Positions 17,666 through 40,937 of a stretch of DNA of 42,107 bases are shown here, one piece after another. The notes beneath the pieces were generated by a model that worked only from the letters and a program-made list of their open reading frames with translations, was not told where the DNA came from and did not search any database. Origin of the DNA: an uncultured Clostridia bacterium (GTDB taxonomy: Bacteria > Bacillota > Clostridia > Oscillospirales > Ruminococcaceae); NCBI GenBank assembly GCA_947589035.1, contig CANPYZ010000023.1, positions 1-42,107 of the forward strand, in the 5' to 3' direction. The number at the start of each line of letters is the position of its first letter. The first letter of the stretch is position 1. The position numbers and the translations under genes are program-made.

Positions 17666-17706
17666 AATTTACCTCCATATAGATATATTCATTTATTTTT
17701 GTATTA

Positions 17707-18780: not shown

Positions 18781-18833
18781 AGTTTCACCCCATTACTTGT
18801 TAAATTCATATGATAATGAGAATATGAAAAACA

Positions 18834-21379: not shown

Positions 21380-21396
21380 AATATGACCCCCATTAT

Positions 21397-22626: not shown

Positions 22627-22651
22627 TGATTATATCCTTTCTGCCTGTCTT

Positions 22652-23614: not shown

Positions 23615-23616
23615 AA

Positions 23617-24681: not shown

Positions 24682-24689
24682 AACATACC

Positions 24690-25406: not shown

Positions 25407-25410
25407 ATTC

Positions 25411-26142
25411 TCATTTCTCCTTTAATATTGATCTCAGGGATGCCAGCATTACAAGGGTGTTGAACAGAAAGTAAAACATCGTAAATGCATCAGAAATACC
25501 GCATATAACTGCAACAAGCATCAGTGCCTGCGCTCCGCCGGTAGTTGATTTAAGATTTAAAGCAATAGTTTTTACAAGTCCAAAATTAGCCCTGTCTGCG
25601 ACATCATTTACTACCTCTTTCTCCATAAGAGTTGATATAGTCTTATGCATTATCAGTCTCGGAAAGAGTGTGAACAGTGCGGAAAGACCTCCGAGGACGA
25701 TGTACAAATCTTTATTGAACGGGATGTATGTGTCAAAGAAGCAGTCAAAATGTGCTGCTACAATTCCGATTGAAAAGAATGAAAACGCAGATGCGAGATA
25801 TCCGCTCATTGCATCATAAACACTTCCCAACTTAGAGAATTGTTTCTTATATCGTGCAACATTTCCATCAACTCCATCAAGAAGATTCCACAGAAAAAAC
25901 ATGAACCATGCAATGACGAGTGTAGTCTTACTGTTTGCGAAATAGAAAACAATGAATCCTATTACCTGTGGTATTATAGAAATAAGAGTAATAGTATTTG
26001 GCTTGATATTCATATAAAGGAAAGGGATAGTAAGAACATATGATAATGGTCGACCGATATAAAAGGCAATCAAATCATTTTTAGCTGTTGCTTTCTTTTC
26101 CTTTGACATAGTTATATCTGCTATCTGTTTAGGTGTAATCAT
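25411..26142 (-). CDS. CDP-alcohol phosphotransferase family membrane protein
   Basis: A 243-residue protein with about six membrane helices. It carries the family signature from D89 (DGVDGNVAR, then eight residues, G106 and D110). The fourth conserved Asp, expected at 114, is a Gly in DAMSGY. That Asp is the presumed catalytic base in characterised members, so the enzyme may use another residue, belong to a divergent subfamily, or be weakly active. The family transfers a phospho-alcohol from or to a CDP-alcohol at the membrane. With the cytidylyltransferase encoded next, it could load a phospho-polyol onto a lipid or polysaccharide carrier; this is inference. Confidence 0.85.
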   Translation of the reverse strand: MITPKQIADITMSKEKKATAKNDLIAFYIGRPLSYVLTIPFLYMNIKPNTITLISIIPQVIGFIVFYFANSKTTLVIAWFMFFLWNLLDGVDGNVARYKKQFSKLGSVYDAMSGYLASAFSFFSIGIVAAHFDCFFDTYIPFNKDLYIVLGGLSALFTLFPRLIMHKTISTLMEKEVVNDVADRANFGLVKTIALNLKSTTGGAQALMLVAVICGISDAFTMFYFLFNTLVMLASLRSILKEK

Positions 26143-26146
26143 TTTC

Positions 26147-27169
26147 TTAGCTCCCTGACTTTAAAAATTTCTTTTTTTTGTGTTCAAACATAATCGGTCT
26201 GAAATAATTGTATACGATGGATAATAGCCTTAGCACCAATCTTTTCGGAAGTTTGAGGCATATATCCTGACCCAACCTGGTCAATTTTCCTTTGCTTGCA
26301 TTCATAAGAAGAGCATCTGCCCATGGAGTCATCTGCCTATATTTCATATATGCATTCAGATAGGGGTGAGTACTTCCTTTTTCCCATGGTCTGTATGGAA
26401 TCATAAAGAAACCGGTATAGTGAACGATTTTGGGCGATTTTCTGGCATTCAGATACTGTGCTTCAGTGTATGAATACCTTCTTGGCATTCTTAGTATGTG
26501 CATTTCATCATATTCAAGTGCGAAAACAATAGTAACTGTATTGTATTCCGGAGGAAGTATCAGTATCTTTCCAGCAAAGATATGGTTGAGAATACTTTGT
26601 TCATTGAATACGAAGTATCCTTTTTTCTCATAGATATAGTTAATAAAAATTTGCTTGATATTATCCTCACGCCATTTTTTCAGGTTCATAAGAAGAACAC
26701 CGGAATTACAGTATGTACCATTTGAAGGAAGGTCTACCAGTTTTGCATATCTTCTGCTCAAACAGTCATCAACTCCAGCAATATAGTTATCCTTGAAATC
26801 GATATTCCAAAGCTTTGTAAGGTCGCCCTCGATAATGGTATCAGAATCAAGATAGAGAACCCTGTTTACATTTTCGGGAACGAGTTCAGTGATAAATAAT
26901 CTATTATAGCCAAATCCGAGCCAGCCCTTTTTTGTTGTTGAAAGCTTAATGTTAAGTTTCTCTGACCAGTTTGGCATAGAAACAAATTCTATGGTTCTTC
27001 TGTATTTTTTTGTGATTTTTCTAAGTTTCTCTTTTGATTTTTCAGTCATATCCTTCTCTATATAAAGAACATGAATATCTTTGAAATTTTTGTTGTTCTC
27101 AAAGAGAGAAACTATTGAAACGGCAGAGACCTCAGCGAATTTATCGCTGCTGTGATAAATTACCCACAT
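26147..27169 (-). CDS. Family 8 glycosyltransferase
   Basis: A 340-residue GT8 enzyme. The family marks are IYHSSDKFAEVSAVSIVSLF at the start, the metal-binding DXD in RVLYLDSDTI, the SGVLLMNLKKW segment and the HYTGF...RPWEKG motif near the C-terminus. Such enzymes add glucose or galactose from UDP donors. It is homologous along its length to the GT8 at 33741-34748 that opens the other EPS operon. AAAGG precedes ATG 27169. Confidence 0.92.
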   Translation of the reverse strand: MWVIYHSSDKFAEVSAVSIVSLFENNKNFKDIHVLYIEKDMTEKSKEKLRKITKKYRRTIEFVSMPNWSEKLNIKLSTTKKGWLGFGYNRLFITELVPENVNRVLYLDSDTIIEGDLTKLWNIDFKDNYIAGVDDCLSRRYAKLVDLPSNGTYCNSGVLLMNLKKWREDNIKQIFINYIYEKKGYFVFNEQSILNHIFAGKILILPPEYNTVTIVFALEYDEMHILRMPRRYSYTEAQYLNARKSPKIVHYTGFFMIPYRPWEKGSTHPYLNAYMKYRQMTPWADALLMNASKGKLTRLGQDICLKLPKRLVLRLLSIVYNYFRPIMFEHKKKKFLKSGS

Positions 27170-27184
27170 ATATGATGCCTTTCA

Positions 27185-28273
27185 TTATTCATAGAAATTT
27201 TTTAAGAAACTGATTTTTCCGGAAAGTGCTATAAGCATTGCGGAAAAAATAAATGTACAGGCAGTTATCCAACAAAGACCAATTATCCAATTCTTTTCGT
27301 CAAGCATAACTGCAAAAACTGTTTCCGTCAGCAATTTCGGAAGAGCGGTAAGAAATATTCTTTGTGAGAGGAATATTGCTGTACTCATTCTTCTCATATA
27401 TAATGATGTTTCGCTGCTGATAACTGGCTGTGTGCTGATGATGCACCAATAAACTGCACAAAATGTGAAAGGGAAAAGTGCTATTATTGTATTTGAGTTA
27501 TGAGCTTCCAACCTAAGCTTTGAGATAACCGCTTCTACAATAAATAAACAACAGAGAACAACAGAAGCCCAGAAATATCTGTTGAAAACGGGAGAATACT
27601 CCTTCTTGTCATTGCGCTGTTTATATGCGACCATTGCTCCGACTGCGATATAAGGAAATCCGTTGAACACACCATTTCGAGTGGTTATAAATATTACCCT
27701 GTAGGCGGCGAATAACTGTCCAATGACAGGTATCTTTTCTGTTAAATTGTAATAGCAATCACCCATAGCTCCAATAATGCAGAAGGCAGTTGCGATACAG
27801 AACATTTTCTTGTCACCGAAATACTTCCTGAGAACAACTGCGAGTACAGCTCCGACTGCTGTTGCAGGAAGAAACCAAATCGTATTATATGTTGAATAAA
27901 CCAATGCACGGTGAATGTAGCTGAGCACTTCCGTTGAGGAGGGTGTGAACCTTATCCACGTGATGACCTGAAAGAATATATATATCAATGACCAGATCCC
28001 ATAAAGTCTCATAGTTTTAAGGCAATAATTTTTAGTGAATTCCTTATGATTTGAAGAATCACTGCTATATATTTTTTTAAAAAGGAAATAACCGCTGAAA
28101 GCAAAATACATGGGTACTGCGATGATATATATGGATACTGCAAGATCAAGCACTTTCGGCAGCTTGCCATTAGCGTGTTCATTCAGAAAATGACTGAATA
28201 GTATAAGAAAAGCAAGCATCAGTTTCACGATATCAATAAGGGTATATGCCTTTTTAGTAACTGAACTATTCAT
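27185..28273 (-). CDS. Acyltransferase family 3 membrane protein
   Basis: A 362-residue polytopic protein with about ten helices, resembling acyltransferase-3 members (LIDIVKLMLAFLILFSHFLN with the conserved His at the end of helix 1, then IYIIAVPMYFAFSGYFLF). It may acylate the EPS, as may the gene at 15531-16544; the two proteins are not close to each other. The ATG overlaps the aldolase stop (ATGA). Confidence 0.8.
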   Translation of the reverse strand: MNSSVTKKAYTLIDIVKLMLAFLILFSHFLNEHANGKLPKVLDLAVSIYIIAVPMYFAFSGYFLFKKIYSSDSSNHKEFTKNYCLKTMRLYGIWSLIYIFFQVITWIRFTPSSTEVLSYIHRALVYSTYNTIWFLPATAVGAVLAVVLRKYFGDKKMFCIATAFCIIGAMGDCYYNLTEKIPVIGQLFAAYRVIFITTRNGVFNGFPYIAVGAMVAYKQRNDKKEYSPVFNRYFWASVVLCCLFIVEAVISKLRLEAHNSNTIIALFPFTFCAVYWCIISTQPVISSETSLYMRRMSTAIFLSQRIFLTALPKLLTETVFAVMLDEKNWIIGLCWITACTFIFSAMLIALSGKISFLKNFYE

Positions 28274-29286
28274 CTCCCCGCTCCCTTGATTAACGCCCTG
28301 TATAAGTCTTCAGCCTTTTTGTCACTGTAAAGAAATTTATCATCTCCTGAGATGCTTTTGATAACTCTGCTGTAATCGGCAATACTCATATTCTTATTCA
28401 TTAAATATGTAGCATAATTGGGGTTGCACTGATTTACAGCTGCAATAAAGTATTCAAGATTATAGCCCCAAGGAAACCTCGAATATATCTCCTTCAGACA
28501 TTCGTCCCATATCTCGAAAGCATGATGAATGTTAAAAGAAGTGTTGTGAAAGGAGTTGAGGTAATTACATATCATTTCAAGATTAAGATTGCCAGCACCT
28601 CTGCCCATTCCATATACACTTGCATCAATCACGATATCATGCTTGAGGTCAAGCTCGGCAAATGTTGTGGCATTTGAGAAAGCCTGCTGCATATTATTAT
28701 GAGCATGATAGCCTATACGTATTCCTTCGCCAACGTGTTCATCAGCAATTCTTGCATATTTTATCAACTGCTCCTTGGAGAGAAGACCAAAGGTATCAAC
28801 TATATAAATTGCGTAGGGTCTTAGCTTACTGAAGCGTTCACACATAGAAGCATACTGGCTCTCTGAATACTGTTCAACTCTTGTGGGCTGAACTCCGAGG
28901 TTATAGCCCATGTCAACTATCTGTGAAGCATACTCATATGCCTCATCCAGACATTTCATCCAAAAGGAATAACGAATAAAATCAAGTCCTCCGGTAGTTC
29001 TTGGGGTAAGCATTTCAGGAGGAAAATAATTAGCCATTTCGATGAGAACTGCATAGAGAGTGCCATTCTTTTTTTTCCCTATTATATCTGTAACTTGCTC
29101 GACTGAATTGAAGATAGATCTGTGCGGATGATATGGTTCATTTCGCATAAATCCCAGTTCAATAATATTGACATTAAGTTTATCAAGCTCACTTCTGATA
29201 AAGCGAATGTTGTTTTCACCAAATTCCCAGTTATTAACATATCCACCGTCTCTCAATGTACAATCCAGAATGCTTACTTTATTCAT
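28270..29286 (-). CDS. DRE-TIM (HMGL-like) aldolase-type enzyme
   Basis: A 338-residue enzyme of the DRE-TIM metallolyase superfamily, which includes 4-hydroxy-2-oxovalerate aldolase and isopropylmalate synthase. The N-terminal SILDCTLRDGGYVNNW carries the divalent-metal Asp and the catalytic Arg-Asp pair, and GYHAHNNMQQA supplies the two metal-binding His residues. The GGY after LRD differs from the classical synthases and is typical of members in capsule and EPS loci, whose substrate is not firmly established. Followed by an acyltransferase and preceded by a hydroxyacid dehydrogenase. ATG 29286 is preferred to GTG 29292 for spacing to AAAGGA. A C-C bond-forming step on a sugar or small acid is inferred. 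Confidence 0.85.
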   Translation of the reverse strand: MNKVSILDCTLRDGGYVNNWEFGENNIRFIRSELDKLNVNIIELGFMRNEPYHPHRSIFNSVEQVTDIIGKKKNGTLYAVLIEMANYFPPEMLTPRTTGGLDFIRYSFWMKCLDEAYEYASQIVDMGYNLGVQPTRVEQYSESQYASMCERFSKLRPYAIYIVDTFGLLSKEQLIKYARIADEHVGEGIRIGYHAHNNMQQAFSNATTFAELDLKHDIVIDASVYGMGRGAGNLNLEMICNYLNSFHNTSFNIHHAFEIWDECLKEIYSRFPWGYNLEYFIAAVNQCNPNYATYLMNKNMSIADYSRVIKSISGDDKFLYSDKKAEDLYRALIKGAGR

Positions 29287-29288
29287 TA

Positions 29289-30203
29289 TCACTGTTTCCT
29301 TTCATCGATAAATTCCTTTAGATTGTGCAATATTACATTCCATATTCTTTCGTTATTTTTATCCGATACAAACGAATTATGCGGAGTAATAATGACATTC
29401 TTCATCTTCCAAAAACTATCACTTTCAGGTAAAGGTTCTTCAGCAAACACATCAAGGACTGCACCGTATAATCGAGATGAAAGTGCTTCTTTCAAAGCTT
29501 TTTCATCAATAATACCACCTCTTGCTATATTGACTATCACTGCATCTTTTTTTATACAGTTGATTTTATCCTTCCCGAACATTCCTTTTGTTTTTTCAGT
29601 CAAAGGTAAAGTCAAAATAACAACATCACTTTCAGCGAGTACAGCATCAAGATTTTCCAGTGGCAATACATCATTAAAATACGGCTGATTGCGTGGAAAA
29701 AGGTCGATGCCAATAATATTGTCTGTAAAAGCACTGAATCTTTTAGCAGTTTCCTGTCCAACATTTCCGGCTCCTACAATGCACACTTGAGAGCCATCCA
29801 GCTCACGGAGCGAACGTTCTTTCTCCCATTTGCACGACTTCTGATTTTCAAAGAACGTGAAATTTTTCTTAAAAAGTGCAAGTACTCCACTTAATGCAAA
29901 TTCTGCCATGGGAATACTGTATATACCGCTTGCATTGTACAACCTTATGCCTTTTAATTTGATATATTCGAGAGGAACACGGTCGAGACCGGCACTCAAA
30001 AGCTGTATACATTTCAGATTAGTGAACTCATTTATATCATGCTTCACAAATAACCAGTTACAGATAACAGCATCTATATCCCGAATATATTCGCCAAGCT
30101 TAGAATCCTCTCTGGGAGATACAATGATTTCATATCCCATCTCTTCCAGCTTTGTTCGGTATTGTTCTTTAAGCTCAAGCAAACCTGTTATCAATAGCTT
30201 CAT
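29289..30203 (-). CDS. D-2-hydroxyacid dehydrogenase family protein
   Basis: A 304-residue NAD(P)-dependent oxidoreductase. The cofactor-binding motif GAGNVG (144-149) is followed by D167 (NAD preference likely), the catalytic R228 (ARGGIID), the Glu in VFAEEPLP (about 256) and H275 (TPHNS), all present. It reduces a 2-keto acid to a D-hydroxy acid or the reverse. It lies between rfbG and an aldolase-type enzyme, so its substrate may be a pyruvate-derived or aldolase-derived acid destined for the polysaccharide; this is inference. Its start lies 29 bases inside the end of rfbG. Confidence 0.88.
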   Translation of the reverse strand: MKLLITGLLELKEQYRTKLEEMGYEIIVSPREDSKLGEYIRDIDAVICNWLFVKHDINEFTNLKCIQLLSAGLDRVPLEYIKLKGIRLYNASGIYSIPMAEFALSGVLALFKKNFTFFENQKSCKWEKERSLRELDGSQVCIVGAGNVGQETAKRFSAFTDNIIGIDLFPRNQPYFNDVLPLENLDAVLAESDVVILTLPLTEKTKGMFGKDKINCIKKDAVIVNIARGGIIDEKALKEALSSRLYGAVLDVFAEEPLPESDSFWKMKNVIITPHNSFVSDKNNERIWNVILHNLKEFIDERKQ

Positions 30204-31263
30204 AGTTATCCCCCATAAGGAAGAGATTTATCTCTTCGTCCATTTCAGCAGATATGTCTCCGCCTTCGAGAAGTATTTTGCAAAAACGACAGGTCATTTC
30301 CATACATTTATCAATATGCCATCTCGGTTTCCAGCCGAACATGGATTTAATTTTACTACAGTCAAGCTTGAGAAAATTTGCTTCATGGGGTGCGTTAGCC
30401 TCAGCAACGTTTTTCCACTTTGCATCAGGTCCCCAGTATTTGCAGAATAAATCAACAAGATTGCCTGTAGTTACACAGTCACAGTCGTCGGGACCAACAT
30501 TATAATATCCTGCATATGAGGAATCCTCATACTGCTTTTGGGCGATTGTAAGATATACAGAAAGCGGCTCAAGAACATGCTGATAAGGTCTTGTAGAAAA
30601 AGGATTCCTTACAATAATATCATTCCTGCTCTGTACAGCTCTTATACAGTCAGGAATGATCCTGTCGTTGGCGAAATCTCCTCCACCAATAACGTTTCCG
30701 GCTCTTGCAGTTGAAACAGCTACCTTATTATCACTAAAAAAGCTGTTTTTATAGCTGTGAGTGACAAGCTCAGAGCAACTTTTACTGTTTGAATATGGAT
30801 CAAAACCATCAAGAGACTCGTCCTCTCTGTAACCCCAACACCACTCATTATTATGATACACTTTATCTGTAGTAATATTGAGAATGCTCTTTACGCTTGA
30901 AGAAAATCTTACACATTCAAGCAGATTCACGGTTCCCATTACATTTGTTTCATAGGTATATCTTGGACTTTTATAGCTATCACGAACTATAGGCTGAGCA
31001 GCAAGATGAAAAACTATTTCAGGCTGAACCTTGTCAAATACGCCTTTTAATTTTTCGAAATGTCTTATATCGTCGATTATATTGTCCATTTTATCAGCAA
31101 TACCTGAAATTGAGAAGAGATTTGGATCTGTAGGAGGTTCGAGACTATATCCTGTCACTTCAGCTCCGGCATTTACAAGAATCTTACACAGCCATGTACC
31201 CTTGAATCCGGTATGACCTGTAACAAGCACTTTTTTGCCCTTATAAAATGAATAGTCAAACAT
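30175..31263 (-). CDS. rfbG: CDP-glucose 4,6-dehydratase
   Basis: A 362-residue extended SDR that turns CDP-glucose into CDP-4-keto-6-deoxyglucose. The Rossmann motif GHTGFKG (16-22) is the wording specific to RfbG, followed by NITTDKVY, CWGYREDESLDGFDPYSNSK (with YxxxK) and RAGNVIGGGDFANDRIIPD. ATG 31263 shares its A with the rfbF stop (TAATG), so the two are coupled; an in-frame start at 31305 would run far into rfbF. No RfbH-type dehydratase follows, so the product probably does not enter the usual 3,6-dideoxyhexose route. Confidence 0.95.
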   Translation of the reverse strand: MFDYSFYKGKKVLVTGHTGFKGTWLCKILVNAGAEVTGYSLEPPTDPNLFSISGIADKMDNIIDDIRHFEKLKGVFDKVQPEIVFHLAAQPIVRDSYKSPRYTYETNVMGTVNLLECVRFSSSVKSILNITTDKVYHNNEWCWGYREDESLDGFDPYSNSKSCSELVTHSYKNSFFSDNKVAVSTARAGNVIGGGDFANDRIIPDCIRAVQSRNDIIVRNPFSTRPYQHVLEPLSVYLTIAQKQYEDSSYAGYYNVGPDDCDCVTTGNLVDLFCKYWGPDAKWKNVAEANAPHEANFLKLDCSKIKSMFGWKPRWHIDKCMEMTCRFCKILLEGGDISAEMDEEINLFLMGDNYEAIDNRFA

Positions 31264-32045
31264 TAGTCTTTCCACACCTTCCACGGAGCATTGCCCGTAC
31301 TCCACATTTTTTCAAGAATATCTTTTTCTCTCTTTGTGTCCATACACTGCCAGAAACCTTTGTGCTTATAGGACATAAGCTCTCCTTCTTTTGCGAGTCT
31401 TTGGAGAGGCGATTTTTCAAAAACACAGTCATCACCGTCAAGATATTCAAACACCCGTGGTTCGAGTACCATAAACCCAGCATTAATCAAAGCACCATCA
31501 TTATGGCTTTTTTCTCTGAATGAGCGAACTGCGTTGTTACCACCAACATCGAGAACTCCTTTTTCCTGAGCTTGTATAACAGCAGTTAATGTAGCTATTT
31601 TTTTACGAGTTCTATGAAATTCAACTAAATTTTCGATATTCACGTCACACACGGCATCACCGTATGTCATCAGGAATGTGTTATTTCCGATATATGGCTG
31701 TATTCTTTTTATTCTGCCACCAGTCATAGTGTTTAGTCCTGTATCCACGACCGTGATCTTCCAAGGCTCACAGTGCTGGTTATGGATAAGCATATCATTC
31801 CTGCCTTTAGTAAAATCGAAAGTTATGTCGCTGTTATGGAGAAAATAATCTGCGAACCATTCTTTGATAATATGCTGCTTATAGCCTGCACATATTACAA
31901 ATTCATTGAATCCATAATTAGAAAAACCTTTCATAATATGCCAAATTATCGGTTTTCCACCAATCTCAACCATAGGTTTCGGTTTATATTGAGATTCTTC
32001 AGATATACGTGTTCCAAAGCCCCCAGCAAGCAAAACCACTTTCAT
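31263..32045 (-). CDS. rfbF: Glucose-1-phosphate cytidylyltransferase
   Basis: A 260-residue nucleotidyltransferase that makes CDP-glucose from CTP and glucose 1-phosphate. LAGGFGTRISEESQYKPKPM is the nucleotide-binding loop with the catalytic Lys. YGDAVCDVNI carries the metal Asp, and the CMDTKREKDILEKMW ending is typical of RfbF. It is the first gene of the minus-strand EPS operon. AAGGAG lies eight bases before ATG 32045. Upstream are 320 bases and then the left inverted repeat of the invertible segment, which in the opposite orientation would aim a strong promoter at this gene. Confidence 0.96.
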   Translation of the reverse strand: MKVVLLAGGFGTRISEESQYKPKPMVEIGGKPIIWHIMKGFSNYGFNEFVICAGYKQHIIKEWFADYFLHNSDITFDFTKGRNDMLIHNQHCEPWKITVVDTGLNTMTGGRIKRIQPYIGNNTFLMTYGDAVCDVNIENLVEFHRTRKKIATLTAVIQAQEKGVLDVGGNNAVRSFREKSHNDGALINAGFMVLEPRVFEYLDGDDCVFEKSPLQRLAKEGELMSYKHKGFWQCMDTKREKDILEKMWSTGNAPWKVWKD

Positions 32046-32083
32046 TCCAACAACTCCTTATAATTTAATTCGGTTCAAAAATC

Positions 32084-32114
32084 ATTATATAATAAATAAT
32101 AACTCAAAAATCAA
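32084..32114 (-). promoter_or_regulatory. Candidate weak promoter of the rfbF operon
   Basis: On the minus strand TTGATT (32114-32109) is followed after 17 bases by TATATA (32091-32086), or after 19 by TATAAT (32089-32084). It is weaker than the invertible promoter. If active, it would give the left operon a basal level in either orientation. Confidence 0.4.
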
Positions 32115-32364
32115 GAATGAAAAATTATTTAAATTTTTTAAATTGTTAAGTCATGTGTCAGCACGATAGAGCTTATTTTCTGAGTCAGCATTTTTCATAT
32201 TGAATCAAGTATAATCCTACATTTAGACTTCACATGTTCCATGTCTCGCCTAACAATTTACATAAACAAGATAATCAATACGAATTTATATACTAAATCT
32301 CAACTATCTCCTCAACACTTAAAAAAATCTCATCATATAGAAACGATAATTTTATCAACCTCTT
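32115..32364. other. Spacer between the rfbF promoter and the left inverted repeat
   Basis: About 250 AT-rich bases without a credible gene. No terminator facing rfbF is visible, so a leftward transcript that starts inside the invertible segment could reach rfbF. The resulting leader would be about 420 bases long. Confidence 0.4.
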
Positions 32365-32391
32365 CTTCGTTTAAGTGAATATTTCACGAAA
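32365..32391. repeat. Left inverted repeat (IR-L) of the invertible segment
   Basis: The core TTAAGTGAATATTTCACGAA (32371-32390) recurs in reverse complement at 33701-33720; CTTCG and one flanking A extend the match to 27 bp, with a single T/C difference at 32370. The core contains the near-palindrome GTGAA-TAT-TTCAC, as expected for two recombinase-binding arms around a short crossover region. Confidence 0.9.
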
Positions 32392-32440
32392 TATGACAGC
32401 ATATCATATTCAATTGTCAAGGTGCTTATTTTTTAAATTT

Positions 32441-32460
32441 TTCAGTCAAACTGAATTTTT
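32441..32460 (+). terminator. Weak hairpin with T run at the recombinase 3' end
   Basis: TTCAGT (32441-32446) pairs with ACTGAA (32450-32455), followed by six T residues on the plus strand. It contains the recombinase stop codon. As a terminator it faces transcription entering the recombinase gene from the left. On the minus strand it is followed by AAAAATTTAAAA, so it should stop recombinase transcripts only poorly. Confidence 0.35.
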
Positions 32461-33515
32461 TGCATATAGGCTTGTTTTATTGAAAAATCGGGATGCACAT
32501 ATCTTTCCAACGTAATTTTTACGTTGGAATGCCCAAGAATTTCACTTAATGCCTTGATGTCAAAGCCGAGTTTCACGCAATTTGAGGCAAACATATGGCG
32601 CAGAGCATGAAAATGCACTGACGGCAAATTTACGTTTTTCAAAATTTTTGCAAACCGGTACTGCATTGTCCGTGGTTCAACCGGTTTAGTTTTTCCGGAA
32701 CAGAGAAATTCTTCTTCTTTTCCCTGAAAACGGCGTAATAAAGGCATTATGCATTCCGGAATGGGAATACATCTTTTAGAAGTTTCACTTTTCGGTTCAG
32801 TAATGACAAGTTTTGTTCTATGTATTTGGTCAAAAATCTGGATTCGCTGTAAAGTTTTCCTGACGGTCAGAATCCGTTTTTCCAGATCAATATCTTTCCA
32901 CTGCAAGGCACAAAGTTCACCGATACGAATGCCTGTTGTCATAGCAAGACTGATGCCGAAACTGGATAAATCAGAATGCTCCGACAAATAATTCCGGAGT
33001 TTTTTCTGTTCTGTCTCATCGAATAAAGCGATTTCAGGGGCTTTTTTCTTCGGCATTATGATACCGTCTAAAGGATTTTCAATATGATATTGCTTTACAG
33101 CATATTTAAACACTGATTTCATCAATACAATCATATCTGAAATATACCGATTGGACAGTCCTTCCTGCTGCTTTTCCGTAATAAACGCATAAATTTCTTT
33201 TGTCCGGATTGCAGAAACTGCAAAATTTCCGAATTTTGGACAAATATGCTTGTTCCACTTCAGCTGATAATTCGCATAGGTAGATGCTTTGATTCTGCAC
33301 TGCATTCCCTGTATCCAGTCAGCGTAAATATCTTTCAGCAAAATATCGCATTTCTGGCTGAAATTCTTATATTTGAATTGTTCCATTCTTGTCAGAACCA
33401 GTTCACGGGTACGCCCTAAAAAATAGTGGAAACTTTTCTTTTCTCCCTTTTTCTGCTCTTTGGGGATTCGTCCTTCCCAGCGACCATCTTTACGATGATA
33501 AATATTCATTTTCAT
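32442..33515 (-). CDS. Tyrosine recombinase / site-specific integrase (putative DNA invertase)
   Basis: A 357-residue phage-integrase-family recombinase. It has a basic N-terminal part (NIYHRKDGRWEGRIPKE, an arm-type DNA-binding region), a SAM-like core-binding domain (about 70-155), then the catalytic domain with R in TTGIRIGELCALQW, H-x-x-R in HALRH, H in LGHSN and the nucleophilic Tyr in LERYVH, a complete R-H-R-H-Y set. ATG 33515 has AAGGAGGA seven bases upstream; a longer frame to 33548 has no such site. The gene is flanked by 27-bp inverted repeats and has its own promoter back to back with the EPS promoter. Family members act in transposition, phage integration or DNA inversion; the flanking inverted repeats and the absence of other mobile genes favour inversion. 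Confidence 0.9.
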   Translation of the reverse strand: MKMNIYHRKDGRWEGRIPKEQKKGEKKSFHYFLGRTRELVLTRMEQFKYKNFSQKCDILLKDIYADWIQGMQCRIKASTYANYQLKWNKHICPKFGNFAVSAIRTKEIYAFITEKQQEGLSNRYISDMIVLMKSVFKYAVKQYHIENPLDGIIMPKKKAPEIALFDETEQKKLRNYLSEHSDLSSFGISLAMTTGIRIGELCALQWKDIDLEKRILTVRKTLQRIQIFDQIHRTKLVITEPKSETSKRCIPIPECIMPLLRRFQGKEEEFLCSGKTKPVEPRTMQYRFAKILKNVNLPSVHFHALRHMFASNCVKLGFDIKALSEILGHSNVKITLERYVHPDFSIKQAYMQKIQFD

Positions 33516-33572
33516 TGTGTTGTCCTCCTTTTTGTGCAGTATCCACAAAATTAAGAAATTAAATTTTGTCTT

Positions 33573-33602
33573 ATTTTAAAAAAATATCAATTGACAAGTC
33601 AA
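33573..33602 (-). promoter_or_regulatory. Candidate promoter of the recombinase gene
   Basis: On the minus strand TTGACT (33602-33597) is followed after 18 bases by TAAAAT (33578-33573). Its -35 is immediately back to back with the -35 of the EPS promoter, so two RNA polymerases could hardly bind at once. Confidence 0.5.
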
Positions 33603-33604
33603 TT
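33589..33604. promoter_or_regulatory. Palindrome spanning both -35 elements
   Basis: AATTGAC (33589-33595), AA, GTCAATT (33598-33604): a perfect 7-bp inverted repeat with a two-base centre. Each arm carries most of one -35 hexamer, TTGACA rightward and TTGACT leftward. It may be an operator, or simply the result of two facing -35 boxes. Confidence 0.5.
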
Positions 33605-33620
33605 AAAACTGTGATATAAT
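33591..33620 (+). promoter_or_regulatory. Invertible promoter, now driving the right EPS operon
   Basis: TTGACA (33591-33596), 18 bases, TATAAT (33615-33620), with extended -10 (TGATATAAT). This is one of the best promoters in the window. It lies inside the inverted repeats, about 80 bases from the right one, and points to the GT8 gene at 33741. Confidence 0.85.
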
Positions 33621-33699
33621 AAAAGCGTAGTTAAAGTGTGTATTTATCATAGTGCAACATTACTGATTATACCATATTTGACAAACAATTTAATTAACT

Positions 33700-33726
33700 T
33701 TTCGTGAAATATTCACTTAAGCGAAG
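33700..33726. repeat. Right inverted repeat (IR-R) of the invertible segment
   Basis: Reverse complement of IR-L with one difference (G at 33721). Its outer end overlaps the Shine-Dalgarno AAGGTGAGG (33724-33732) of the first right-operon gene, leaving no room for a promoter between repeat and gene. In RNA it could form a short hairpin (GTGAA/TTCAC) in the leader. Confidence 0.9.
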
Positions 33727-33740
33727 GTGAGGATTGATGT

Positions 33741-34748
33741 ATGATTGCAAATCGTGCTGTTCATATTGTTTATGCAGCTGATGATCGTTTTGCCGAGATA
33801 TTAGGCGTGTCTTTGGTGTCACTTTTGGACAATAATCAAGATGTGCAGGATATGCACATTTATATTCTTGACAATGATATCAAAAAAATAAACAAGTGCA
33901 AGCTCTTGCAAATTACAAATAATTATCACAGGCATCTTCATTTTATTTCTGCAACAAACATCAACCAGGAACTTTCAATGAATGTGAAGACAGACAGGGG
34001 GTCTTTAAGCCAGTATTCCAGATTATTTATTTCAAAAAATTTGCCATCGGAAGTTGAACGTGTATTATATTTGGATTGTGATATTATTGTCAATGGTTCT
34101 ATCATAGAGCTTTGGAATTTAGATATGCATGGGAAAACAATTGCTGCACTGAAAGATGCGTTCAGCAAACAATACAGAAAAAATATCGGTCTTGCTGAAC
34201 ATGATGTGATGTTTAATTCAGGTGTGATGCTGATTGATTTGAAGCAATGGGAAGAAAGAAAAATTGAGAAGAAGTTGCTAAAATTTATTAAAATTCATAA
34301 TGGTGTGATTCAACAAGGCGATCAAGGCGCATTAAATGCAATTTTATCAAAAGATACTTATTGCTTTCATCCGAAATTTAATTCCGTGACGATTTTCTAT
34401 GATTTTACATATCAGGAAATTCTTACTTACAGAAAACCAGTAGATTTTTATACCGAGCAAGAAGTGAATGAAGCAAAAAAAAATCCAGTAATCATTCATT
34501 TCACAACAAGTTTTCTAAGTGTTCGTCCATGGATAAAAGGATGTGAGCATCCATGTGTATCACTTTGGCTAAAATATAAAGAAAAAAGTCCTTGGGCAGA
34601 ACAGCCTTTATGGGAAATGCCTAAGCAAAAGGGATTAAAAGAAGTTTATACAAAAATCTCAAAAGCATTGCCAAGAAAATTGTGTATAGCTGTATCAAGT
34701 GTATTGCAGGTATACGGAAGACCTTTTTTATATGGCATGAAAAGGTGA
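33741..34748 (+). CDS. Family 8 glycosyltransferase, first gene of the right EPS operon
   Basis: A 335-residue GT8 enzyme: HIVYAADDRFAEILGVSLVS at the start, RVLYLDCDIIV with the metal-binding DXD, NSGVMLIDLKQW, and HFTTSF...RPWIKG near the end. It is a homologue of the left-operon GT8 (26147-27169) with the same domain order and C-terminal tail, though clearly diverged. AAGGTGAGG lies eight bases before ATG 33741 and touches the right inverted repeat. Transcription must therefore start inside the invertible segment, or come through it. Confidence 0.92.
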   Translation: MIANRAVHIVYAADDRFAEILGVSLVSLLDNNQDVQDMHIYILDNDIKKINKCKLLQITNNYHRHLHFISATNINQELSMNVKTDRGSLSQYSRLFISKNLPSEVERVLYLDCDIIVNGSIIELWNLDMHGKTIAALKDAFSKQYRKNIGLAEHDVMFNSGVMLIDLKQWEERKIEKKLLKFIKIHNGVIQQGDQGALNAILSKDTYCFHPKFNSVTIFYDFTYQEILTYRKPVDFYTEQEVNEAKKNPVIIHFTTSFLSVRPWIKGCEHPCVSLWLKYKEKSPWAEQPLWEMPKQKGLKEVYTKISKALPRKLCIAVSSVLQVYGRPFLYGMKR

Positions 34749-34753
34749 TTAAC

Positions 34754-34915
34754 ATGCTTATAAATGAAAATAGGATATGGGATGTAATACGTGACGATAA
34801 GAAACGTAATATAATCCTCATAACAGAAAATTTATATTTCTATTCCGCTGGGAAAGTTATTTTTATCACACAAGAGGTTGGCTTTTGCCACTATCATTAT
34901 TATTTCGTTTATTGA
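34754..34915 (+). CDS. Doubtful 53-codon reading frame, possible gene remnant
   Basis: An open frame from ATG 34754 to TGA 34915, six bases after the GT8 stop. No clear Shine-Dalgarno except the end of the GT8 gene (AAAGGTG, about seven bases upstream). The peptide (ENRIWDVIRDDKKRNIILIT, then YFYSAGKVIFITQEVGF) has fair protein character but matches no family I know. It may be a small gene or debris of a lost one, as short open stretches continue to about 35050. Confidence 0.25.
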   Translation: MLINENRIWDVIRDDKKRNIILITENLYFYSAGKVIFITQEVGFCHYHYYFVY

Positions 34916-35058
34916 TTAAGCTGACGATTAACAGAAATAATCGTTTTCCTTAAGTGATAATTGGCGTAAATGATGATGATGTTACTATAATGGGGTATAA
35001 CAAGATTATTCAATGAAGAAGGGCAGCAAAAGAAATTTATCATAAACGGAGGGACAGT
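34916..35058. other. Non-coding gap or gene debris within the right EPS operon
   Basis: About 140 bases. One stretch reads NDDDVTIMGYNKIIQ before a stop at about 35018. No terminator or promoter is convincing, so the operon is probably continuous across it. The Shine-Dalgarno CGGAGGG for the next gene lies at its end. Confidence 0.3.
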
Positions 35059-35550
35059 ATGATAGTTTTTAAATTATTTTACCATATACAAGCAAATATA
35101 TTTAAATTTATCCTAAAAATAATTTATGGTAAAAAAATCATATTTCATAAAAAAATTACATGGAGAAAAGGGTTTGTAGTAATGATAGGAAAATCAGGTA
35201 AAGTGCAAATTGGAGATGGCTGCTTTTTTAACAATAACTGCTCCCTTGATTGTACAAAATATATCGAAATAGGAGAAAATTCAATTTTTGGGGAAAATGT
35301 AAAAATATATGACCACAATCATTGCTTTCGAAGTAGTACAATACCCATAAAAAAACAAGGCTATAGTAATGGTATGGTTATCATTGGGAAAAATTGTTGG
35401 ATTGGAAGCAATGTTGTTATTTTAAAAAATTCCAAAATAGGAGATCATTGTGTAATTGGCGCAGGATGTTGCATTTCTGGTGAAGTTCCTTCACATACTA
35501 TTGTAAAACAAGATTCAGGTAATCTATTGTACAAAAAAATGATTGTGTAA
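35059..35550 (+). CDS. Left-handed beta-helix acyltransferase
   Basis: A 163-residue hexapeptide-repeat acetyltransferase of the maltose/WcaF-type group. Repeating turns such as IEIGENSIFGENVKI and IIGKNCWIGSNVVILKNSKI build the beta-helix, and the His in YDHNHCF is the expected catalytic residue. It should transfer an acetyl group to a sugar hydroxyl or amine in the cytoplasm. The N-terminal 45 residues are basic and hydrophobic, possibly membrane-associated. GGAGGG precedes ATG 35059. Confidence 0.85.
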   Translation: MIVFKLFYHIQANIFKFILKIIYGKKIIFHKKITWRKGFVVMIGKSGKVQIGDGCFFNNNCSLDCTKYIEIGENSIFGENVKIYDHNHCFRSSTIPIKKQGYSNGMVIIGKNCWIGSNVVILKNSKIGDHCVIGAGCCISGEVPSHTIVKQDSGNLLYKKMIV

Positions 35551-35611
35551 TTGGTATAGAATGAAGTATTTATGATTATTCACTATTTAAGAAAGAATTG
35601 GTTTAAAAAAT

Positions 35612-36703
35612 ATGAAAAAAATTAGTGTTCTTCATATAGGCATTGCTTGTGAAAAAGGCGGAATAGAATCATTTATAGTAAATGTCTGTTCACACCTTGA
35701 TCAAAGCCGTTATCTTTTAAGCATAATTGCAGATTGTAAAAATTCTCCGGTTGAACAGGAATTAAAACAGATAGGTGGTAAAGTGTTGCATATTCCTTCA
35801 GCAGTAGAAGATAAAATTGGATATATAAAAGGATTATGGACTATAATCGATAAAAATCGATATGATGTTGTACATATCCATAAAAACTCACTTGCAAATC
35901 CTGTGGCAATTTATATCTGTTATTTGAAAGGAATAAAGAAAATTATTTTGCATTCACACAATACACAACCTACAAATGCAAATAGCAACGTAAAAGTACA
36001 TGAAGTGTTTAAAAAAATGACAGCTAAAATTCCCATGATTCGTCTTGCTTGCTCAAAACAAGCAGCAGAATGGATGTATCCGGAAAATGTAGCTTATGAA
36101 ATACTTCATAATGGAATACAGACTGCTCAATATCAATTAGACTCCCAAAAACGTCAGAAAAAACGGCATGAATTGGGTATTGAAAATGATATGACTGCTT
36201 TTTGTGCGATTGGCAGATTGACAAAACAGAAAAATCCCATTTTCCTTGTTGATATTTTTACACAAATCCGGAAGAGAAAAGAAAATTGCCGATTATATTT
36301 TGTTGGTAATGGAGTCATGGCACATGAAGTAAAACTATATGCAAAAAAGTCTGAATTTTACAAAGATATTTATTTTCTTGGTACGAGAAATGATATACCC
36401 GATTTATTACAGGCTTTTGATTTGTTACTTATGCCGTCATTATATGAAGGACTACCAATTGCAGCAATTGAAGCACAGGCAGCAGGATTACCGTTACTGA
36501 TTTCAGATAATGTAGACAAAGATGTAAAACTTACACCATTTACAGAATATGAATCTATTGAAAAGTCACCAGAAATATGGGCTGAACATACCTTGGAATT
36601 ATTGAAAAAATCAGAAAGAAATAATTCAACAGATTTGATTGTAAAATCTGGATATGATATTATGAATACTGTAGTTAAAATACAGCAGATTTATTCTGAA
36701 TAA
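35612..36703 (+). CDS. Family 4 glycosyltransferase (GT-B fold)
   Basis: A 363-residue GT4 (glycosyltransferase group 1) enzyme. The N-terminal acceptor domain starts KKISVLHIGIACEKGGIESF. The C-terminal donor domain has IGRLTKQKNP, FLGTRNDIPDLLQAFD and the nucleotide-sugar motif MPSLYEGLPIAAIEAQAAGL (the E-x7-E pair). Cytoplasmic, retaining. It builds part of the right-operon repeat unit. A 61-base gap precedes it; the Shine-Dalgarno is weak, which may lower its translation. Confidence 0.93.
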   Translation: MKKISVLHIGIACEKGGIESFIVNVCSHLDQSRYLLSIIADCKNSPVEQELKQIGGKVLHIPSAVEDKIGYIKGLWTIIDKNRYDVVHIHKNSLANPVAIYICYLKGIKKIILHSHNTQPTNANSNVKVHEVFKKMTAKIPMIRLACSKQAAEWMYPENVAYEILHNGIQTAQYQLDSQKRQKKRHELGIENDMTAFCAIGRLTKQKNPIFLVDIFTQIRKRKENCRLYFVGNGVMAHEVKLYAKKSEFYKDIYFLGTRNDIPDLLQAFDLLLMPSLYEGLPIAAIEAQAAGLPLLISDNVDKDVKLTPFTEYESIEKSPEIWAEHTLELLKKSERNNSTDLIVKSGYDIMNTVVKIQQIYSE

Positions 36704-36716
36704 ATAAGGTTGGTTA

Positions 36717-37841
36717 ATGATGATATATATTTTTTCGTTTACAGTCTCCTGTTTGTTTCTATCATGTTCTGAAAAAAAATGGTGCAAAAATAAATTATTT
36801 GGCTACATTTTAATTTTGCTTGCATTGTTAATCCCATCAGTCCTTGCCGGATTAAGAGATTTTTCTATAGGTACAGATGTAGAATTATATGGAAATATAT
36901 GGTTTGCAGATGCATGTAAAATGGATTTTATTTCTTATATTGAATCGGCATCAACATCTTCAATAGGTGTTTTATATGCACTATTGAATTATCTTACAGC
37001 ACTTGTTACAGATGATGTAAAGATTTTTTATTTTTTTCTTTCTTTTATAGAAACACTTTTGGTTTATATGGGGTTAAAGGGATTTGATAAACAAATTTCA
37101 GTTCCATTTGGAATGTTTGCCTACTATACATTGTTCTATAATAATACCTTAAATTTGTTAAGGCAATTTTTGGCATTTTCTATTGTTTTGTTTTCATATC
37201 AATTTTTAGTGAAAAAAAAATATTTTATATTTATTATCTTAACATTAGTGGCAATAACTGCACATTCATCTTCTTTTGTAGCTTTTGGTTTATTAATTCT
37301 ATTTCTTATTAGTGATAAAATTAAGTTAAAATTTTCTGTATTGATTTTTGATTTATTTGTACTTTTTTCTACAGTAATCTTATCTTTGTTTTATCAGAAA
37401 ATTCTAATCTTAGGAACAAATAATGGCTGGCTGTCTGAACGATATGATACATATATGGAAAATACCGTTGTCGGTGGTAGAATGATTCGCATATTTTTTT
37501 GGATGATAATTCTTGTATTAGCATTGATTGCTTTTTATCAATTTTTAAGAATTTCAAAAGATAATCGTTTGTTAATAACTTGTACAATAATGTCCTTTGC
37601 GATGTCTTTCTTATTGTTTATGGGAAACGTTTACACAATCAGAATTGCATACTACTATGATGCTGGTTCAATTATTCTGATTTCCAAATTACCTGAAATA
37701 TATAAAGCAGAATTTTATGGGAAAAGATCCAGATATTGTATTTATTTTGTCTTGATTTTACTTTTATTAATACGATGGTATCTTGAATATGTTCGTTCTC
37801 TTAATGGACAAACATATCCATATAAATTTGCATCATTTTAA
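36717..37841 (+). CDS. EpsG-type polysaccharide polymerase
   Basis: A 374-residue polytopic protein (about 11-12 helices) of the EpsG/Wzy group. The early motif SVLAGLRDFSIGTDVELYGN, with its Arg-Asp and GTD, is characteristic. It should polymerise the repeat units outside the membrane. It differs in type from the Wzy-like protein of the left operon (21397-22626), so each operon has its own polymerase. Confidence 0.88.
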   Translation: MMIYIFSFTVSCLFLSCSEKKWCKNKLFGYILILLALLIPSVLAGLRDFSIGTDVELYGNIWFADACKMDFISYIESASTSSIGVLYALLNYLTALVTDDVKIFYFFLSFIETLLVYMGLKGFDKQISVPFGMFAYYTLFYNNTLNLLRQFLAFSIVLFSYQFLVKKKYFIFIILTLVAITAHSSSFVAFGLLILFLISDKIKLKFSVLIFDLFVLFSTVILSLFYQKILILGTNNGWLSERYDTYMENTVVGGRMIRIFFWMIILVLALIAFYQFLRISKDNRLLITCTIMSFAMSFLLFMGNVYTIRIAYYYDAGSIILISKLPEIYKAEFYGKRSRYCIYFVLILLLLIRWYLEYVRSLNGQTYPYKFASF

Positions 37842-37852
37842 GGAGTGGTAAA

Positions 37853-38614
37853 ATGTCGATATATATTGTAACACATAAAAAGTACCCAATGGCTGATATG
37901 GAAGAATATATTCCCATTCAAGTTGGAGCCAGTCTTCATCCGCATTTAGGATATATGACGGATGATAAAGGTGATCATATATCAGAAAAAAATCCAAATT
38001 TTTGTGAATTAACGGCATTGTATTATATCTGGAAAAACAGAAAAAATGATAGCATTGTCGGGTTGGTTCACTACAGGCGTTTCTTTTATAGGAAAAAAAC
38101 TTTAGATTGTAAAAAAAATATTCTTTCTTATCAGGAGGCAAAAATCCTTTTGAACGAATATGACATCATTCTCCCCTATAAAAACTATCGTAAAGGTTTG
38201 ACAATGCAAGAGGATTATACTAAATTTCATCATTTTAGTGATTATAGTGAGTGCAGAAACATTATAAAAGAAAAGTACCCTGAATATATTGCAGCATTTG
38301 ACACCTTTTCCAAATCAAAAGAACTTTTCCAATACAATATGTTTATATCCACATATTCAATCCTTGATTCATATTGTCATTGGCTATTCGATATTCTTTT
38401 TGAGTTAGAACGTCGTGTTGATATTAGCAACTATGATGATTATAATAAAAGAATATTTGGATTTTTGTCAGAGCGTTTATTTAATGTATGGCTCATACAT
38501 AATCATCTGAAAATTAAAAAATTAGAAGTGTATAATATTGAAGAAAGTAAAATTGGATTACTTGCTACAAATGTAAAAAATTTGATTAAACCTATATTGG
38601 GAGTGAAACGATAA
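37853..38614 (+). CDS. DUF4422 protein, probable glycosyltransferase
   Basis: A 253-residue soluble protein. IYIVTHKKY at the start, IPIQVGA, NPNFCELTALYYIWKN and the LVHYRRFF motif are the signature of DUF4422, a family found in capsule and EPS clusters and regarded as a glycosyltransferase (galactofuranosyl- or related). GGAGTGG precedes ATG 37853. Its stop overlaps the start of the next gene (TAATG). Confidence 0.88.
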   Translation: MSIYIVTHKKYPMADMEEYIPIQVGASLHPHLGYMTDDKGDHISEKNPNFCELTALYYIWKNRKNDSIVGLVHYRRFFYRKKTLDCKKNILSYQEAKILLNEYDIILPYKNYRKGLTMQEDYTKFHHFSDYSECRNIIKEKYPEYIAAFDTFSKSKELFQYNMFISTYSILDSYCHWLFDILFELERRVDISNYDDYNKRIFGFLSERLFNVWLIHNHLKIKKLEVYNIEESKIGLLATNVKNLIKPILGVKR

Positions 38615-39732
38615 TGGAAAAGCGAGTGGGAATTATTACTTTTCATTCAGCCTATAATTATGGCTCAGTGTTGCAGGCATATGCTACACAAGAAGCGATT
38701 ATTCAACTTGGATATAACGCTGAAATCATAAATTATAGACCTGCAAAACAAAAAGAAGCTTATTCTAATTTTCACTTTCATCAGGGAATAAAAACAATGT
38801 TGAGGGATATAACATTACTTCCCATTTATTCTGACAGAAAAATGAAATATGAAAAATTTGAAGAGTTTTTAGAAAAAAGACTTCATTTGACAGAAGTAAG
38901 AGAAAATGCAGAACGTGTAAATGAACTTTGGTCATCATTCCCTATTATGGTAAGTGGAAGTGATCAAATATGGAATCAACATTCTTTGGAACTTGAAGGC
39001 ACAGATATGAAAAAAATGTATCCTTATTTATTACATGGATATTGTGGAAAGAAAATATCTTATGCTTCTTCTATTGCAAGCAAAAACGATAATGAGCTAA
39101 AAAAATTACAACCTTTTCTTGAAAAATTTTCTCATATTTCAATGCGTGAAAAATCCAGTGCCGATATAATGTCAAATCTTCTTCAAAGCGAAATTCCTCA
39201 TGTGCTTGATCCGACATTTTTATTAACAAGAAATGATTGGATTGAACGATTCAATTTATCTCAAAAAAATACTCGCTATATTCTTTATTATTCGTTGCGT
39301 AGTATGAAATATTTCAATTCAATAAAAAATGACCTGATTCGCATTGCTAAAGAAAATCAATGTAAAATGATATTAGTTATGCCATTTTGTTATGTACCAA
39401 CAACAGAATATTTTGAACCTCATCCGGAATGTGGACCAATAGAATTTCTGAATCTGATTTATAATGCAAAATTGGTTGTGACAGATTCTTATCATGGAAC
39501 AATATTATCAGTGAATTTTGGAAAAAATGTTTTTTCTGTATGCAAAAATAAAAATGCATCGGAATACAGAAAAATAGATATTCTTAGGTTGCTTGGCATA
39601 GAGAATAGAATTGTGTTTAACATTAATGATATTTCATGTAAAAATTTGATTGATTATCATGCAGTATATGAAAGATTGGCATTATTAAGAAAAAACAGTT
39701 TAACTTATTTACAAAATGCATTATTGGAGTGA
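38614..39732 (+). CDS. Polysaccharide pyruvyl transferase family protein
   Basis: A 372-residue protein of the CsaB-like group: GIITFHSAYNYGSVLQAYAT, then SGSDQIWN, SMREKSSADI, VLDPTFLL and VTDSYHGTILSVNFGK. It is the counterpart of the left-operon gene at 20234-21379, and is likewise associated with an F420-beta-like gene, here directly downstream. It probably adds a pyruvyl or related group to a sugar of the repeat unit. Coupled by overlap to the DUF4422 gene. Confidence 0.9.
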   Translation: MEKRVGIITFHSAYNYGSVLQAYATQEAIIQLGYNAEIINYRPAKQKEAYSNFHFHQGIKTMLRDITLLPIYSDRKMKYEKFEEFLEKRLHLTEVRENAERVNELWSSFPIMVSGSDQIWNQHSLELEGTDMKKMYPYLLHGYCGKKISYASSIASKNDNELKKLQPFLEKFSHISMREKSSADIMSNLLQSEIPHVLDPTFLLTRNDWIERFNLSQKNTRYILYYSLRSMKYFNSIKNDLIRIAKENQCKMILVMPFCYVPTTEYFEPHPECGPIEFLNLIYNAKLVVTDSYHGTILSVNFGKNVFSVCKNKNASEYRKIDILRLLGIENRIVFNINDISCKNLIDYHAVYERLALLRKNSLTYLQNALLE

Positions 39733-39737
39733 TGAAA

Positions 39738-40934
39738 ATGCATAAAACAATTTGTGAAATAAATAGTTGCACAGGCTGCGGAGCATGTATGCAAATATGT
39801 CCTCGACATTGTATTGCCATGGTGGAAAATAACGAGGGCTTTTTATACCCTCAAATCGATACTACTCAATGCATCAATTGCAATTTGTGTAAAAAGACTT
39901 GTCATGTTAATAGCAATCTCCAAAAAAATTCAGCTGAATTTTATATGTGTTGGAATAATGACAAAACCGTTTTGAAAAATAGTTCATCAGGTGGTGCATT
40001 TTCTGCCATAGCAAAATGTGTATTTGATCAAAATGGAATTGTTTTTGGTGCTTATCAGGACTTTATAAAACGTGAAGTATATCATATCAGAATAGATACT
40101 TACAACGATTTGCATAAAATTCGCATGAGTAAGTATAGCCAAAGTGATATTGATGATGTATATCAGCAAATAAAACTGCTTCTTTTAAATGATAGAATTG
40201 TTTTATTTTGTGGAACAGCCTGTCAAGTTGCCGGATTATACAATTATCTTAATCATACATCAGCGAAATCTAAATTGAAACTGCTGTACACTATCGATGT
40301 ACTATGTCATGGAGTAACAAGCAATAAAGTAGTCAAAGCCTTTCTTGAAAGTAAAGAAAATAGTAAACATAAAAAAATTAATCAGTATTATTATCGATGG
40401 AAATTCCCAAATAAACCATGGATATGTGGACAAATGCTTTTAAAGTTTTGTGATGAGAAAAAATATATCTCAAAATTAGGAACAGATACATTTTTTCTTG
40501 GATTTAATCATAATATTTTTTTGCGTGAATCATGTTATCAATGCAGATACTGTGGAACAGAGAGAATTTCTGATTTTACCCTTGCAGACTATTGGGGATG
40601 TCCAAAAAATAGCGTTCCAAAAGAACAGATGTATATGGGTGTTTCTATTATACTTTTCAATACTCTGAAAGCAAATTCGCTTTTCAATGCCTTACAAAAA
40701 TATATGCATATTGAAAAAATTAAACCCGACATTGCAGTTGCAAATAATCTTGCATTGACAAGACCACAAAAACGTCCTAAAATCAGAGATTCTTTTTTTG
40801 AAATGTTGCAAAAAGAAGATTATGATAAACTAATAAAAAGAATATTCAAAAATGAAATAATAAAAGCTAAGATAAAAAACATGTTTGGGGAGCGCAATAT
40901 TAAATACTTAAAAAAGGTACTGAGGAGAGGATAG
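39738..40934 (+). CDS. F420-hydrogenase/dehydrogenase beta-subunit family protein with 4Fe-4S domain
   Basis: A 398-residue protein. The N-terminal ferredoxin-like domain has two cysteine sets, CTGCGACMQICPRHC and CINCNLCKKTC, for two 4Fe-4S clusters. The core follows with SSSGGAFSAIAKC, GTACQVAGLYNYL, DVLCHGVTSNKVV and CYQCRYCGTERISDFTLADY. It pairs with the preceding pyruvyltransferase-family gene. ATG 39738 is preferred because GGAG lies eight bases upstream; two earlier in-frame starts are too close to that site. Electron-transfer function is likely; the reaction in EPS synthesis is not known. The left-operon relative (17707-18780) lacks the cluster domain. Confidence 0.87.
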   Translation: MHKTICEINSCTGCGACMQICPRHCIAMVENNEGFLYPQIDTTQCINCNLCKKTCHVNSNLQKNSAEFYMCWNNDKTVLKNSSSGGAFSAIAKCVFDQNGIVFGAYQDFIKREVYHIRIDTYNDLHKIRMSKYSQSDIDDVYQQIKLLLLNDRIVLFCGTACQVAGLYNYLNHTSAKSKLKLLYTIDVLCHGVTSNKVVKAFLESKENSKHKKINQYYYRWKFPNKPWICGQMLLKFCDEKKYISKLGTDTFFLGFNHNIFLRESCYQCRYCGTERISDFTLADYWGCPKNSVPKEQMYMGVSIILFNTLKANSLFNALQKYMHIEKIKPDIAVANNLALTRPQKRPKIRDSFFEMLQKEDYDKLIKRIFKNEIIKAKIKNMFGERNIKYLKKVLRRG

Positions 40935-40937
40935 ATT

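Follow-up and report, generated by a model that had tools for sequence, protein, structure and literature searches.

The window analysed here, a 42,107-nt stretch of DNA from an uncultured, Ruminococcus-like gut bacterium of the Clostridia, carries a 1362-bp cassette (32365–33726) that, judged from its family, is strongly supported as a self-contained inversion switch and that probably acts as a two-way selector between two polysaccharide operons. A sequence-only reading had proposed an inversion switch, and the opposite orientations seen in relatives and the expected anatomy of the recombination sites bear this out for the family, whereas inversion of the window cassette itself was not seen and is a step that we infer. 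The same reading had placed the cassette between a 16-gene operon on the minus strand and a polysaccharide operon on the plus strand, which the layout of open reading frames (ORFs) and the domains confirm; it had also described a recombinase and a promoter between 27-bp inverted repeats identical at 26 of 27 positions, and we find them so, with ends that are unique in the assembly. The features are as follows.

15531–32045, minus strand: polysaccharide operon of 16 ORFs, first gene rfbF, with gaps of -43 to 53 nt.
32046–32364, minus strand: rfbF leader of 319 nt, from the left end to rfbF; the best promoter at 16–18 spacing matches 9/12.
32365–32391, minus strand: left inverted end, a predicted recombination site, with the spacer TATTCAC at 32375–32381.
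32407–32421, minus strand: motif CTTGACAATTGAATA, conserved at the left inner end in many relatives.
32442–33515, minus strand: tyrosine recombinase of 357 aa (PF00589 and PF14659), with R197, K242, H303, R306, H329 and Y339, which we take to be its catalytic residues.
33573–33602, minus strand: candidate recombinase promoter, 10/12 by consensus match only, its -35 region shared with the outward promoter.
33591–33620, plus strand: predicted outward promoter TTGACA-N18-TATAAT with an extended -10 (TG before the -10), a 12/12 consensus match.
33700–33726, plus strand: right inverted end, a predicted recombination site, with the spacer TATTCAC at 33710–33716.
33741–41900, plus strand: second polysaccharide gene cluster of 8 ORFs, truncated where the contig stops (42107).

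The left operon contains rfbF, rfbG, glf, a Wzx-type flippase, glycosyltransferases and an acyltransferase, its enzymes including glucose-1-phosphate cytidylyltransferase, CDP-glucose 4,6-dehydratase and UDP-galactopyranose mutase; an ORF of 409 aa at 21397–22626 had no Pfam match and is, by its hydrophobic look only, a candidate polymerase. The families of the right cluster are GT8, hexapeptide transferase, GT, EpsG, DUF4422, pyruvyl transferase, FrhB and GT2. Its first gene begins 14 nt beyond the right end of the cassette, with AGGTGAGG at the repeat edge, and because a gap of 310 nt follows that gene, the continuity of the right operon across the gap is an assumption. Between the two clusters, the recombinase gene sits inside the inverted-end segment and is intact, encoding 357 aa from its ATG or 368 aa if an upstream TTG is used; all of the R, K, H, R, H and Y of a tyrosine recombinase are present, and the domain search matched PF00589 and no serine-recombinase family. 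The similarity of the cassette ends continues to 33 nt at 91%, and none of 1780 shuffled flank pairs reached an inverted-repeat score of 20, against 24 in the window. Searched with up to three mismatches, the window's own assembly (2.4 Mb, 72 contigs, 95.9% complete) has the end sequence at the two ends only, and a control with the reversed pattern gave 0 matches.

With a cutoff of E 1e-30, homologous recombinases are present in 31 of the 38 genus genomes, the window's own included, and the best 80 of 583 relatives in named genomes belong mostly to Ruminococcus and other gut Clostridia MAGs, with few isolates among them, for example R. albus 8. Recombinase matches shorter than 300 aa were left out, giving 100 distinct genes, and the exclusion of 11 without 300 bp on both sides left 89 for comparison. 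R/K/H/R are conserved in all 89 and H/Y in 88, the remaining one having a gap. Inverted ends with a score of at least 17 bracket the recombinase in 77 of the 89 homologues, against 2 of 1780 shuffles; strong ends are missing in the other 12, and these we count against our best explanation. Ranked by identity to the window protein, the bracketed loci are 28/29 at 55% or more, 22/26 at 49–55%, 10/12 at 45–49%, 16/20 at 40–45% and 1/2 below 40%, and the segments of the family are 1164–1593 bp long. The counts of promoters, of terminators and layout, and of the motif CTTGAAAATTGAATA refer to the 77 loci with a score of at least 17, the comparison of orientations to the 81 loci with a score of at least 14; the loci are related, and all the counts are of sequences, not of independent events.

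Alignment of the family sites reveals 10-bp arms like TTTCGCAAAA and TTTTGCGAAA with a 7-bp spacer between them. In a site profile that took in 73 of the 77 loci, the arms of partner sites are often unequal, and the spacers are always equal except for one N. Because these 73 loci had been selected for their repeats, a fairer test was made in which the sites at 89 loci were picked by arm score alone: the spacers within a locus were identical in 74 of the 89, compared with a mean of 1.54 and a maximum of 6 under permutation, the arm consensus being derived from the same loci and the spacer left outside it. Different loci have different spacers, 58 in all. The family sites have the two arms, with a short overlap identical between partners, by which tyrosine-recombinase sites are recognised, and an overlap that is identical within a locus and variable between loci is what such an enzyme is expected to need. 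In the window's own genome, two other intact paralogous cassettes have the spacers GGGCTTC and GGCAGAA beside the window's TATTCAC, and because the spacers differ, the three should not recombine with one another. A small palindrome within the end repeat, GTGAATATTTCAC, was rejected as a family-wide feature, as it is not common to the sites of relatives.

Opposite orientations were found by comparing loci that share their flanks. In one MAG, Ruminococcus sp. UBA7013, L042 and L043 lie on separate contigs and are one locus at 94–96%, with the cassette reversed relative to both flanks; variants in the inner arms travel with the cassette and those in the outer arms with the flanks, a pattern that puts the exchange at the centre of the site. 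The two contigs may represent two strains or two copies, and both orientations exist either way. Further opposite pairs sharing both flanks are formed by L075 with L079 and L080 and by L085 with L088 and L165; altogether, 5 both-flank pairs from three locus groups are opposite versus 24 in the same orientation, and we counted the latter against our best explanation. Because shared flanking gene families could produce them, the 41 opposite pairs matching on one flank were excluded as evidence, except that L059 and L060, which have a 2500-bp flank in common at 96%, starting from the first base beyond the site and lying on opposite sides, were kept as support only. Seven pairs involving L039 are mixed, because both sides of L039 are alike. 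The inverted pairs also weigh on the notion that the cassette is a small integrative element, excising or moving rather than switching, which we find extremely improbable: the solved structures nearest to the recombinase by sequence are Int proteins (6en0, 6emy and 6emz), and relatives are found in many settings, contigs classed as viral included, yet the same-locus pairs are inverted with their flanks kept and the cassette has no second mobility gene. As the sites are inverted, recombination between them inverts the DNA and does not excise it.

For the window cassette, the assembly has one orientation and no inverted copy was seen. A search with the DNA of 31263–34748 gave partial matches in 89 of the 297 genomes of the bacterial family, the locus being spanned in its own genome only; homologues of the first right gene and of rfbF occur in 4 of the 38 genus genomes each, own included, and eight stretches surrounding homologues of these flanking genes showed no homologous recombinase. 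The single orientation, together with one arm mismatch, would suit a cassette locked in the source strain, a former switch with its recombinase or promoter out of use, and decayed relatives do exist, such as a recombinase relative of 41% identity with six in-frame stops in the same genome (C9:65477–66529). Such a state is nevertheless very unlikely for the window cassette, whose ORF is intact, active-site residues conserved, spacers identical and promoter a 12/12 match.

The window has the arrangement of an invertible promoter, inverted repeats around a segment with a predicted promoter directed outward. A local scan gave 14 promoter-like sites versus 12.6 in shuffles, with a second 12/12 site within the GT8 gene, and because this is not above the shuffles, our claim of an outward promoter relies on conservation at the same place in relatives. 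There, it reaches at least 11/12 in 49 of the 77 loci, against 2/77 on the opposite strand and 5/1540 in shuffles, and the extended -10 is present in 52 of the 62 loci whose outward promoter reaches 10/12. Over the -35 of both the outward and the candidate divergent recombinase promoters, at 33589–33604, lies AATTGACAAGTCAATT, with 7-bp inverted arms around AA; this palindrome may be an operator or may make the two promoters compete. In 39 of the 77 loci, versus 1 of 770 shuffled, the motif CTTGAAAATTGAATA lies on the outward strand immediately inward of the left site, and at the right inner end it is present in 2 of the 77; we take it to resemble the boxA antitermination element of Gram-positive rRNA operons, and it could alternatively be an accessory recombinase site. 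Antisense pairing was considered for an inverted pair at 33492–33512 and 33633–33653, which joins the start of the recombinase gene to the outward leader, and was dropped, because both transcripts would bear similar, not complementary, sequence.

In the layout of the 77 loci, 43 have an outward gene on one side and a terminator-like hairpin on the other, 24 fall into further classes, and 10 have outward genes on both sides, a class that includes the window and in which L063 and L103 possibly rest on doubtful ORFs, L063 having a terminator-like hairpin within its first left ORF. Terminator-like sites lie beyond at least one end in 52 of the 77 loci versus 27 of 231 shuffled, the window's match in that count falling inside the GT8 gene. 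Outward genes without preceding terminators on both sides, as in the window, are the layout of a selector. Among the 12 loci examined gene by gene, only the window has polysaccharide genes on both sides; the 11 others (L059, L060, L062, L063, L064, L071, L072, L090, L104, L114 and L120) have polysaccharide-type genes on one side only, with Pfam applied among them to L060, L064, L071 and L114 only and the flanks of the remaining loci judged from ORF direction and the beginnings of translations.

The prevalence of the gene/terminator layout speaks for an alternative in which the cassette turns the right operon alone on and off, the left operon being driven from its own 319-nt leader and the left side serving to park the promoter. 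The leader is long, and it has 10/12 promoter-like sites, poorly spaced at 19 and 15, which may act as weak promoters and which we count against a selector. An 11/12 promoter stands immediately before the gene in two rfbF homologues (75%), a point in favour of a selector; in another homologue (60%) no promoter of at least 10/12 was found either, which is also counted against a selector. We nonetheless regard a switch of the right operon alone as unlikely, if the most serious competitor: no terminator was found between the left end and rfbF (32046–32364), the leader reaches no more than 9/12, at two sites, with 16–18 spacing, and a flipped promoter would read into rfbF anyway. The folding of the leader is not unusual (z -0.58), and an Rfam scan of 31000–36000 gave one chance-level match (E 2.4).

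Elsewhere in the same genome, L039 (contig C48, 2668–4260) is a paralogous cassette within whose 181-bp ends two large, divergent and homologous genes begin, of 912 aa (open) and 2079 aa, one with a Laminin_G_3 domain, an arrangement that fits a selector. In L031, L032 and L033, from three genus genomes, recombinase relatives at 36–38% lie between two divergent pilin-motif genes, with PF07963 (type IV pilin N-terminal motif) on both sides in 3/3 and inverted ends of 154–253 bp that include the pilin starts; these look like a pilin selector. For the window cassette, two-way selection, as the sequence-only reading had it, is retained as the best and, from the sequence, a probable reading, because of the geometry, the lack of terminators before the first genes, the absence of a good fixed promoter from the leader of rfbF and the L039 paralogue; most relatives, in contrast, are on/off by layout, and the family alone therefore does not imply a selector.

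Under two-way selection, the recombinase would bind the arms of both end sites, and strand exchange within the identical 7-bp spacer TATTCAC would reverse the 1.36-kb segment. As assembled, the right polysaccharide operon would be driven by the outward promoter; after a flip, transcripts from this promoter would cross the 319-nt leader, which they would gain ahead of rfbF, and continue into the left operon of 16 genes, and the right operon would be deprived of the promoter. The net outcome would be the exchange of one surface polysaccharide for another. In this scheme we infer that the promoter is active, that the left operon depends on it and that the two states are exclusive; the recombinase gene faces the operon opposite to that of the outward promoter, and weak read-through could thus blur the exclusivity.

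Whether the window cassette belongs to a portable family of the following kind we consider evenly balanced: cassettes of about 1.2–1.6 kb, each equipped with a tyrosine recombinase of its own, a promoter directed outward and a 7-bp spacer private to the locus that prevents cross-recombination, would stand before genes for polysaccharides, surface proteins, helicases and other products. Most would be on/off switches, with a terminator where the promoter is parked, and fewer would be two-way selectors; those sharing a spacer within one genome may swap whole operons. Of four loci from rabbit-gut MAGs, L060, L062 and L063 share the spacer GATTTAC, L060 and L063 having it within one MAG, and L059 has GTTTTAC; in these four, unlike gene clusters adjoin shared flanks, as an exchange of operons from locus to locus would produce. 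Of 73 loci returned from IMG/VR, 8 were checked, and inverted-end cassettes were present in 6 (L178–L182 and L185), on contigs classed as viral, L180 and L181 looking identical. At L111, L113, L115 and L120, an apparent second tyrosine recombinase gene, directed outward, begins 30–67 bp beyond the left site; the call was made from translation, and flank matches support homology. A helicase-like gene closely follows the cassette in L085, L088, L109, L114, L134 and L135, with ResIII, Helicase_C and HA domains in both of those tested (L114 and L134), and in L114 it is followed by sugar transferase and UDP-sugar dehydrogenase genes.

Polysaccharide switching through promoter inversion is best known in Bacteroides. 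If our reading is true, a self-contained switch that swaps operons would give Ruminococcus-like bacteria a change of coat comparable to that of Bacteroides, and coat switching bears on phages, host immunity and colonisation. The 7-bp spacer would be a readable code for which sites can recombine, and the layout would provide a rule, a far-side terminator or a second gene, by which on/off switches and selectors are predictable from sequence.

In the accessible portions of the openly licensed literature, supplements aside (including PMC11892184, PMC5903667, PMC13343947 and PMC11868660), neither the cassette family nor a recombinase-carrying selector of two polysaccharide operons is described. The cassette may be compared with inverton group 139 of a 2025 survey, which comprises 33 invertons, 32 of them from Clostridia, called from read orientation and closely linked to a tyrosine recombinase family, invertase group 35 (PMC11892184). 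The window cassette is like that group in its Clostridia setting and the link to a tyrosine recombinase, a likeness of description, and unlike it in that the accessible part of the survey describes no in-segment recombinase and no two-operon arrangement (PMC11892184). In Salmonella Hin, as far as the available text describes it, the (serine) recombinase of an inversion switch lies inside the segment (PMC5903667), and the window cassette similarly has a recombinase gene and a promoter within the invertible segment and two surface structures that would alternate (PMC5903667, PMC11868660). The window cassette departs from Hin in that its enzyme belongs to the tyrosine recombinases and that the promoter would itself be turned to one operon or the other. 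Hin is a serine enzyme that works with a Fis-bound enhancer, and a repressor, not a promoter turned toward it, controls the second flagellin. The E. coli fim and C. difficile RecV switches, as far as their available descriptions go, are like the window cassette in their tyrosine recombinase, short inverted repeats and inverted promoter or leader; they have the recombinase gene outside the segment and turn one target on or off, whereas the recombinase gene of the window lies within the segment. The Bacteroides Mpi capsule promoters share with it, in the accessible accounts, invertible promoters ahead of polysaccharide operons, one master serine enzyme there acting on many scattered sites (PMC5903667, PMC11892184). 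Unlike in the Mpi system, each cassette of the family studied here brings a tyrosine enzyme and a spacer of its own.
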